DNA of 64,000 nucleotides from assembly GCF_001644605.1 (NCBI RefSeq), contig NZ_CP011388.1:4259501-4323500 (forward strand). The letters are read 5' to 3'. Within the stretch, counting starts at the first letter, position 1. Each line of letters opens with the position of its first letter. The position numbers were made by a program, and so were the translations under genes. Below, one piece after another: positions 1 through 3,028 of this stretch. Below the pieces are notes generated by a model. That model saw only the letters and a list, made by a program, of their open reading frames with translations. It did not search any database and was not told where the DNA came from. The stretch is from Paenibacillus swuensis (GTDB lineage Bacteria > Bacillota > Bacilli > Paenibacillales > DY6).

Positions 1-731
1 AAGCCCAACTCCTCGAACAAAACACCGGAGACGACCATATATTTAAGACTGTCCTTGACTTTCTCCGCTGTCTTAGCCAGTGTGCCGCCAATTGAAGGGA
101 TTTTCTTCAACAGGCTTTCCAGTTCGCCCTTAGCCTTCTTGTAATTCTTATCGGAACGAATGCGGCTCAAATAATTGTGAATCGCCCCGACGTTTGGAGC
201 AATCGACATTTCATTATCATTCAGCACGACCATCAGGTCTTTCTTCTCATGCCCAATATGGTTCATCGCTTCCAAAGCCATGCCGCCGGTCATTGCGCCG
301 TCGCCAATAATGGCAATTACTTTATTAGACTCTCCTTTAAAATCCCGCGCCAAAGCCATCCCCATCGCGGCGGATAAGGAAGTACTGCTGTGGCCGGCTT
401 CCCAAACATCGTGAACACTTTCATTCCTTTTTATAAACCCTGACATGCCTTTATATTTTTTCAAAGTATCGAAACGGTCTTTACGTCCCGTTAAAATTTT
501 ATGTACATACGATTGATGTCCCACGTCAAAGAGGAACTTATCAACCGGACTGTTATACAGATAATGCAACGCTATCGTTAATTCCACAATACCCAGATTC
601 GAGGACAGGTGGCCGCCGGTTACCGAAAGCTTTTCAATGAGAAACGTACGGATTTCCTGTGCTAACAGCTCCAGTTCTTCCACTGAATAATGCTTGATAT
701 CGCCGGGCTCATTAATTCGATCGAGCAGCAC
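1..731 (-). CDS. dxs: 1-deoxy-D-xylulose-5-phosphate synthase, N-terminal part (cut by window edge)
   Basis: This is the first enzyme of the MEP isoprenoid pathway; it condenses pyruvate and glyceraldehyde 3-phosphate using thiamine diphosphate. About 243 N-terminal residues are in the window. They show the GGHLSSNLG segment, [23 protein letters not shown] and the thiamine-diphosphate/Mg motif GDGAMTGG followed by LNDNEMSI. The start is a GTG at 729-731 ([10 protein letters not shown]) with a purine-rich ribosome site just upstream; it overlaps the end of the upstream gene oapA by 20 bases, so translation is probably coupled. It is the last visible gene of the nusB-folD-xseAB-ispA-OLE-oapA-dxs cluster. 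The remaining two thirds lie outside the window. Confidence 0.95.
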
Positions 732-1341
732 GCTTGTTTCCCCGCTTTCCGTTTTTCGATGACTTGTTTTTCTTAGCGTTAAAAATTCGAATACCTAAAT
801 GGTGCTCTATAAGATAAAAGAATTTGCCAATCGTGAGTACAATCTCAGTTGAGTAGTGAATAGCGAAGGATTTCCCCATCGCTTTCCCGCCAACCGTCAA
901 AGCAGACACGATGCCGGCAAAAACTACGCTGACAACGGTAGTTAAAACAGAGTTTTCCGCATTCATGGATACGAGAAGCTTCAGCACTACCAAGGCGCCT
1001 GCCGCTCCGCTGATAACTCCGCAAATATCACCGATCACATCGTTACAGAAATTACTGAACCGGTCCGCGTTGCGCACAATGCCAATCGCTTGGCGCGCGC
1101 CGTGAACCTTCTCGGATGCCATGGCATGAAAAGGGGTTTCATTCGCAGCAGCAGCGGATAATCCCATCACATCGAAAAATATGCCTACAAGAATCAGCAT
1201 AAAGACAACGCACATCCCGATCCCCCAGCTGACACCGCCCAACAAAGTGGTCGAGGTTACGGAGAAAATACAGGCCAGAATAAAGGATACGCCCGCGATA
1301 AAAATGCTCCATTTAACGGAATCTCGAACAGAAAATTTCAT
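712..1341 (-). CDS. oapA: OLE-associated membrane protein OapA
   Basis: A 209-residue protein with four predicted membrane segments (about residues 11-30, 34-60, 103-125 and 132-152) and a very basic C-terminal tail rich in Lys, Arg and Ser (from about 189). The loop after segment 2 contains [28 protein letters not shown], shown here only as key residues F55, D57, E68 and H80, and resembles the start of a CNNM/DUF21-type magnesium-transporter domain. OapA is known from Bacillus halodurans as the membrane anchor of OLE RNA, and its gene normally lies between the OLE gene and dxs, exactly as here. The assignment rests on size, topology, basic tail and this synteny. The end overlaps the dxs start by 20 bases. 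Confidence 0.85.
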
Positions 1342-1387
1342 GATACAGGCATGACTCCAGTCAAATATAATTCATTAAAATACAAAA

Positions 1388-2045
1388 TCGAGTGGTGGCT
1401 TCCTGAGTAAACGCTGTGGCTTAGGTCCAGTAGGTTTTCCCAACAGAGACACCCCTTCGTCGCCGAACAGGCGGTTTCCCTTTATGCTCCGCTTGACGCA
1501 GTCACCCAACGTCAGACTGGATTACCACTCAGTCCACACTATAATCCCCAGGAAGCCTTGCCTTGCGGCAAACAGTCTAGGAGATTTCCTCTGCAGCCCT
1601 GAAACTCATCCCTTAGCCTCTTTTGCAAAACAGATTTCAAATAGCATCCGGCGAACGTCTCTTTGGCCTAAGAAACGAGCTCCTACCATCTATAATCCCC
1701 TCTGGCTCACTCAAGGCAGGCTACGCTGCAAACAAGTCGTTTTAGACTCCAGCTCTTCGCTAAGTACGAATAATGGGCAGGTGAGACTCGCAATGCAGGT
1801 TCATACCCCAAGCCGTAGCCGAGCGCACGGTGGCGCAAAAGCCACGCACTTGGGCCTCCGCGGAAGCGGGGTCAACGCCCACATGCCATTGTGGATCGCC
1901 CCACAACCTTAACTCCCAGCATCAGCCCCCGACTGGGCGTCAGAAGCCAACACCAGGAACTTCATCGATGTGCCCTTTAGCGAATTTTTAGGCCCGCCTT
2001 CAGAGATGGTAGACTGACTAGAATACTGCACCACCCTCGAATGTA
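1388..2045 (-). ncRNA. ole: OLE RNA (ornate, large, extremophilic), about 650 nt
   Basis: The 769-base gap between ispA and oapA has no convincing protein gene on the minus strand, yet is dense with short complementary segments. The two ends pair: the 5' segment complementary to 2029-2040 (TCGAGGGTGGTG) matches the 3' segment complementary to 1388-1399 (GCCACCACTCGA) with one small bulge, which defines a closed RNA of roughly 650 nt. OLE RNAs are about 600 nt, and lie between ispA and oapA/dxs in several Bacilli and Clostridia. In B. halodurans the RNA sits at the membrane with OapA and also binds OapB and the ribosomal protein S21 homologue OapC; loss sensitises cells to cold, ethanol and magnesium stress. 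Identification is from length, strand, position and partner gene, not from a covariance search. Confidence 0.87.
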
Positions 2046-2051
2046 ATACAC

Positions 2052-2081
2052 ATTATACCATACCCGCAGGTCAAAACCCAA
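2052..2081 (-). promoter_or_regulatory. Extended -10 promoter for OLE RNA
   Basis: Read on the minus strand, TGGTATAAT (complement of 2052-2060) is a perfect extended -10 element. TTGGGT lies 18 bases upstream as a partial -35. Transcription would begin near 2045, a few bases before the paired 5' end of OLE RNA. The promoter lies just after the ispA stop codon, so the RNA, oapA and dxs can be transcribed independently of the upstream genes. Confidence 0.65.
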
Positions 2082-2110: not shown

Positions 2111-3028
2111 TTAGTAGTCCCTGCGCATCAAATAATCGGCAAACTGGAGGAGACGGTCCGGATTGGCCAGCTCTCCCGCCAGCAAAGCCGCTTTGGCATC
2201 ATCCGTCAATTGAACCACTTTCGCCTTACAGGCGTCTAAGCCGAGTAAATATGGATAGGTTACTTTCTGGAGTTTCTCATCGCTGCGCAACGGTTTGCCG
2301 ATCTTCTGTTCATCCCCCGTCAGGTCGAGGATATCATCTTGGATTTGAAAGGCCAGTCCCAACAGCAGCCCAAACCGTTCCAAAGCTTCAAGCTGGTTGG
2401 ACGTGGCCCCGCCTACACGTCCGCCCGCTTTCAGGGAAAATACAATGAGATCACTGGTCTTGTGCGTATGTATATATTCGAGTTGACCGATATCCGTGAT
2501 ACCTTGCTCACCCAGAATATCCGCGGCTTGCCCGCCGACCATCCCTCTTGCGCCGGCATAATAGGATAAATCCTCCACGATGGCTAGGGCGCGGTCCGCC
2601 GGCAAGCCTCCATGTTTGGCCGCCTGTGTAATACTGAAGAATGCGTGCGTCAACAGGGCGTCTCCCGCAAGAATCGCCATGGCTTCGCCGTAAACGCGGT
2701 GATTGGTCGGCTTACCGCGGCGAAAGTCATCATTATCCATAGCGGGCAAATCGTCATGTATAAGAGAATAGGTATGGATCATTTCGATAGCGCAAGCTAT
2801 GGGCATAGCGCCTCGGGAAGTATCTGCGTCATCCGCAGCAACGGCCTCAGCCGCCGCTAATACGAGAAGAGGCCGCAGGCGTTTGCCTCCGGCCATGAGA
2901 GAATACTGCACAGCTTCAGACAACGCCCCGGGCACTTCCCAATCGATCGGCAAGGCTTGGCGCAGCTGTGTTTCTACCCTATCCACTTGTTCTTCCATGT
3001 AGGCTTTAAACGGCAACGTAGAACTCAC
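2111..3028 (-). CDS. ispA: Farnesyl diphosphate synthase (polyprenyl synthetase family)
   Basis: This enzyme joins isopentenyl diphosphate to allylic diphosphates to make farnesyl diphosphate for undecaprenyl phosphate and quinone synthesis. The 305-residue protein has the first aspartate-rich motif DDLPAMD at residues 92-98, the second DDILD at 231-235, GGKRLRP at 47-53 and the FQ pair before the second motif. Length fits the family. The start is GTG and overlaps the xseB stop by four bases (GTGA), indicating translational coupling. Its stop is followed by the promoter of OLE RNA. Confidence 0.96.
   Translation of the reverse strand: MSSTLPFKAYMEEQVDRVETQLRQALPIDWEVPGALSEAVQYSLMAGGKRLRPLLVLAAAEAVAADDADTSRGAMPIACAIEMIHTYSLIHDDLPAMDNDDFRRGKPTNHRVYGEAMAILAGDALLTHAFFSITQAAKHGGLPADRALAIVEDLSYYAGARGMVGGQAADILGEQGITDIGQLEYIHTHKTSDLIVFSLKAGGRVGGATSNQLEALERFGLLLGLAFQIQDDILDLTGDEQKIGKPLRSDEKLQKVTYPYLLGLDACKAKVVQLTDDAKAALLAGELANPDRLLQFADYLMRRDY

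Follow-up and report, generated by a model that had tools for sequence, protein, structure and literature searches.

Does the gap between ispA and dxs in the genome of Paenibacillus swuensis encode an OLE RNA, and is the membrane protein gene next to it that of the OLE partner OapA? OLE is a very large bacterial RNA whose role in stress responses is incompletely understood. Both assignments had been proposed in a sequence-only reading of the window, i.e., the whole 64-kb stretch of DNA analyzed here. That reading had also named checks, among them a search with the Rfam OLE covariance model and a test of open reading frame (ORF) 712-1341 for OapA homology, both of which were carried out.

Identity of the ispA-dxs gap and its neighbor

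A cmscan run of the 64-kb window against all Rfam families returned OLE (RF01071) on the minus strand at 2050-1376, covering positions 1 to 616 of the 616-position model with 512.7 bits (score cut-off, 50 bits) and an E value of 1.8e-147. The same run, again with all families, yielded no second match in the rest of the window. The full-length match thus shows that the minus strand of the gap encodes a structured RNA, as had been claimed. The limits first given to this RNA (1388-2045) were correct to ∼10 nt, since the match spans 2050-1376 and the conserved OLE core runs along the minus strand from GUGGUGCAG (from 2034) to CCACUC (ending at 1390). The genome (5.01 Mb in one contig) carries a single OLE copy, and 0 of 14 control genomes gave a match. 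The genes are arranged in the order ispA-ole-oapA-dxs, with oapA ∼50 nt downstream of ole and the GTG start of dxs, read from the sequence at position 731, overlapping the 3′ end of oapA (Table 1).

Table 1. Coordinates of the features at the OLE locus, numbered from the first nucleotide of the window
Feature	Position	Strand	Basis
ispA (farnesyl diphosphate synthase), upstream neighbor	2111..3028	-	NCBIfam FPPsyn, 375 bits (cut-off, 275)
Promoter-like element: TTGGGT (2081-2076), 18 nt, TG (2060-2059), TATAAT (2057-2052)	2052..2081	-	Predicted
ole, full-length OLE RNA (core, 1390-2034)	1376..2050	-	RF01071 and two-sided pair changes
CAUCGAUG palindrome, candidate OapA contact near P4a	1963..1970	-	Sequence reading; assignment inferred
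GGCC self-complementary loop, equivalent of the L9.3 dimer kissing loop	1665..1668	-	27/27 sequences in A3
3′ region, part of domain 2, with P12.2/P13 hairpins; candidate OapB site	1390..1591	-	A3 invariance and PMC9723947; assignment inferred
oapA, 209-aa four-span membrane protein with basic tail	712..1341	-	Profile A1, E 9.2e-104, and 55 relatives
dxs, 5′ part, cut by the window start	3..731	-	Pfam DXP_synthase_N, 1.3e-104

The protein adjoining the gap had been described as spanning the membrane four times and ending in a basic tail, and both traits were recovered: four hydrophobic peaks at residues 13-31, 41-59, 106-124, and 132-150, and 9 K/R among the last 23 residues. Its homology to OapA is borne out by the match to profile A1 (Table 1) and by relatives that adjoin OLE. 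A GTDB genome scan with ORF 712-1341 retrieved 55 relatives of 47 to 71% identity from named Bacillota, with hosts in Paenibacillus, Chengkuizengella, Fictibacillus, Halobacillus, and others, and in all 16 of the relatives' loci scanned OLE was found 14 to 106 nt upstream of oapA. The RF01071 match, the 55 OapA relatives, the upstream position of OLE in 16/16 loci, and the co-occurrence of RNA and protein across the order (see below) make it ∼99% likely that the locus consists of OLE RNA and OapA. The host OLE is a further full-length example of a known RNA, ordinary in its context. It is very probable that the locus encodes the bacterium's OLE ribonucleoprotein, made up of a noncoding RNA of ∼660 nt and its membrane partner OapA, and that, the transport-control step apart, the complex works as set out below.

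Structure, conservation, and predicted transcription of the RNA

When the Rfam structure was laid on the window copy, 144 of the 159 pairs were standard. An alignment of 27 OLE sequences from the same order (A3), from which the Rfam structure was not derived, revealed changes on both sides in 71/159 pairs, compared with 41.8 ± 3.0 in shuffles, and a total of 352 two-sided cells, compared with 116.5 in shuffles and 46 to 93 in slid controls. The covariation score reached 0.288, against 0.073 to 0.090 for the slid structure, and 90.8% of the cells were paired across the 27 sequences, against 40 to 46% in the slid controls. None of 500 shuffles equaled the observed values on any measure, with the proviso that shuffle tests are inflated by the relatedness of the sequences, a bias of which the slid control is free.

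The window copy shares with Rfam OLE all 616 positions, the place before oapA, the structure common to the 27 relatives, and the GGCC loop. It departs from the model by 46 extra nt in a hairpin loop, the length of which varies among relatives. In addition, two P6 pairs and two pairs of the next stem in the Rfam structure fail to form in most or all of the 27 sequences, reflecting either a group-specific departure or a flaw in the model; because of these four pairs, the Rfam consensus may need revision for this group. OLE variants 1 and 2, described from the TANB77 and RF39 clades (PMC11332333), belong to the same family but are shortened, whereas the window copy is full length.

Several segments are putative contact sites. 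The 3′ region, in which 99 of 202 columns are invariant in A3, includes the P12.2/P13 hairpins, with loops near 1498-1510 and 1453-1470, where OapB would be expected to bind. The GGCC loop corresponds to L9.3, the dimer role of which comes from cryo-EM of OLE (PMC12286853). OapA sites have been reported at palindromes near P2 and P4a (PMC12265935), and the palindrome listed in Table 1 is a candidate for the latter. The sequences that flank the predicted P5 kink turn are likewise conserved in the 27-sequence alignment.

Owing to a weak −35 hexamer, a simple sigma-70 scan gave no promoter ahead of ole; an extended −10 element emerged when the loci were aligned. A TTGAG-N17/18-TGnTATAAT arrangement precedes the OLE core by 10 to 23 nt in all 53 loci with enough upstream sequence, whereas a −10 element with TG is expected in ∼1.6 of 54 shuffled stretches. 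TGnTATAAT is the constant part of this element; TTGAG stands out in slightly more than half of the loci, with a weaker equivalent (TTGGGT) in the window. The recurrence of the promoter-like element in 53/53 loci suggests that ole has a start site of its own besides read-through. This promoter may already have been described in the literature. In Halalkalibacterium halodurans, a single polycistronic transcript is reported to cover the cluster (PMC12265935).

Alternatively, the structured region might act solely in cis, as a riboswitch or attenuator leading the oapA-dxs mRNA, with no free RNA being made. Its location directly 5′ of oapA on the same strand, with no terminator-like site in between, places it in the oapA-dxs transcript at some stage. 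However, in H. halodurans (PMC12265935) members of the OLE family are abundant and stable, conservation extends over the dimer loop and the protein-bound regions, and no terminator/anti-terminator architecture was seen at the locus, so that a leader-only role is very improbable. The chance that the locus is a decaying, non-functional OLE relic is smaller still. Decayed copies do exist in the order (G081 and G173, described below), but the window copy retains 99 of 100 otherwise invariant positions of the 3′ region, and its OapA retains 37 of the 38 positions that are invariant in the other 20 relatives; moreover, model coverage is complete, both termini are intact, and OapA is free of stops. 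Finally, a protein gene on the plus strand can be dismissed with near certainty, since neither Pfam nor NCBIfam matches the 142-codon open frame at 1484-1912 (142 aa), and the sequence is accounted for by the pairing conserved on the minus strand. All three explanations were rejected, and the locus is treated hereafter as that of OLE RNA and OapA.

OapA, further partners, and the proposed working of the complex

The OapA of H. halodurans is likewise a small four-span protein with a basic tail, encoded directly downstream of ole and devoid of CBS and CorC domains; likened by description rather than by direct comparison, it differs in nothing of note from the window protein. Pfam CNNM scored 19.6 bits on the latter (E 7.6e-4), below the cut-off of 28.4, and matched 15 of 21 OapA relatives at E ≤ 0.001 (best, 3.5e-7). 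No CBS pair or CorC/HlyC domain was detected by Pfam in the 209 residues, no NCBIfam model matched OapA, and a PDB sequence search with the OapA profile returned no match. The top matches of the predicted structure (pLDDT 72.8) were CNNM chains (Foldseek E 0.023, probability 1.00), and the model aligned to MtCorB with Z 11.0 over 129 residues, compared with Z 9.6 for Fluc, an unrelated helical bundle. As modeled, the membrane part of OapA appears to resemble the CNNM fold of the MpfA/CorB/CNNM Mg2+ transporters, from which the protein differs in its subthreshold Pfam score and in lacking both the CBS pair and the CorC/HlyC domain. These results are in line with a kinship of OapA and MpfA, as proposed in the literature (PMC11332333).

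Genes for further OLE-binding proteins are found elsewhere in the genome. A bS21 gene is present (E 3.6e-20), and OapC/YbxF was recognized by its match to YbxF structures (E 2.7e-21). OapB matches PDB entry 7k9b, "OLE-associated protein B," with an E value of 1.5e-28. As judged from the translations, the neighbors of oapB within a ribosomal-protein gene row are presumably map and infA, between which it lies, and the gene of OapC precedes what we take to be rpsL-rpsG. Pfam KOW gave two matches only in the genome, presumably L24 and NusG, and oapB was located by its gene position instead.

Published work indicates that OLE forms a dimer (PMC12286853), that OapA anchors it at the membrane (PMC12265935), that OapB and OapC bind it, the OapB site being known (PMC9723947), and that bS21 binds it as well (PMC12054373). 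According to published work, cells without OLE tolerate cold, ethanol, Mg2+, and poor carbon sources less well. Because this host has all of these components, they most plausibly work together here in the same way, and the steps that follow are drawn by analogy from H. halodurans and Clostridium acetobutylicum. Transcription of the RNA would start at its own extended −10 promoter and also proceed by read-through from ispA, and 3′ processing would free the OLE RNA from the oapA-dxs message. The RNA would then dimerize via the GGCC loop and other contacts and be held at the membrane by OapA. OapB at P12.2/P13, OapC at the P5 kink turn, and bS21 at P6 would complete the complex. In the working considered most likely, OapA would transport cations as a CNNM-like module that lacks MpfA's CBS and CorC control domains, a step put forward with caution because the CNNM score lies below the cut-off and the Z score of 11.0 barely exceeds the 9.6 of Fluc. 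OLE RNA and its proteins would supply the missing control, conferring tolerance of high Mg2+, cold, alcohols, and poor carbon sources. This transport-control step is the least certain of all, with roughly even odds.

The host genome contains three MpfA-type (CorC_HlyC) genes alongside OLE, and OapA is therefore not the sole possible Mg2+ exporter of its kind. The mean number of CorC_HlyC copies was 2.0 in the 39 OLE genomes of the order and 3.45 in 20 OLE-free genomes, the first ones listed in the order (Mann-Whitney p = 0.0002, for genomes of similar sizes and with no correction for relatedness). In earlier work, genomes with OLE tended to carry about one MpfA at most. The counts here point in the same direction, but OLE and MpfA usually coexist in this order.

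Distribution in the order and reduced copies

The order to which the host belongs is a large group of mostly mesophilic, aerobic spore formers. OLE is present in 39 of 395 genomes from this order and in 26 of the 50 genera sampled, with hosts that include P. alvei, P. apiarius, and P. psychroresistens; it is thus widespread though patchy. An OapA sequence was found in 38 of the 395 genomes, all of them within the OLE set, which leaves one OLE-only genome, whereas none of the 356 OLE-negative genomes of the order has OapA. A full-length OLE in genome G221 (L097, 2596-3263, minus strand; 519 bits) is followed directly by dxs. No oapA was found in this assembly, which is 70% complete, and the case may break the OLE-OapA rule or reflect faulty assembly.

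The host falls within Bacillota, as expected for OLE. Its description as a "Paenibacillaceae-type" genome was nearly right: it shares the order of Paenibacillus and Chengkuizengella but is the sole genome sampled from its family. The sequence-only reading had further suggested that this locus might widen the known range of OLE, which finds no support, because the RNA has already been cataloged across Bacillota and is fairly common in this order, ordinary Paenibacillus included. The 2024 survey, which covered all of GTDB R214, lists 2,822 OLE RNAs across Bacillota (PMC11332333). Among open papers, none was found that names both OLE RNA and Paenibacillus. As a single case, the locus matters little, being one more full-length OLE with known protein partners; the presence of OLE in this order offers alternatives for genetics to the alkaliphile H. 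halodurans.

Two genomes of the order harbor reduced OLE copies. That of G173 (L095, 2314-2600, minus strand) consists of the 5′ end and the 3′ domain only, most of domain 1 having been lost; 96 of the 99 invariant positions of the 3′ domain are retained, and the adjacent OapA is an open frame that has lost 8 of 37 invariant residues. The G081 copy (L096, 1939-2333, plus strand) comprises 395 nt without P5-P9 and retains 93/99 of these 3′ positions, while the oapA beside it is in fragments, a pattern of joint decay, and represents the weakest of the 38 OapA matches. Both genomes keep the promoter-like element and the OapB gene. Recent decay is a likelier explanation of these copies than a separable 3′ domain. 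The latter reading comes from the observation that the OapB gene, the promoter-like element, and most invariant 3′ positions outlast domain 1 or P5-P9 and OapA, and we consider it unlikely that the 3′ domain has a job of its own, independent of domain 1 or OapA. If it did, OLE would be a two-part device with separable parts. Strict joint loss of ole and its partner gene, partial copies, and the promoter-like element present at every locus read provide handles on the assembly and dismantling of the complex.
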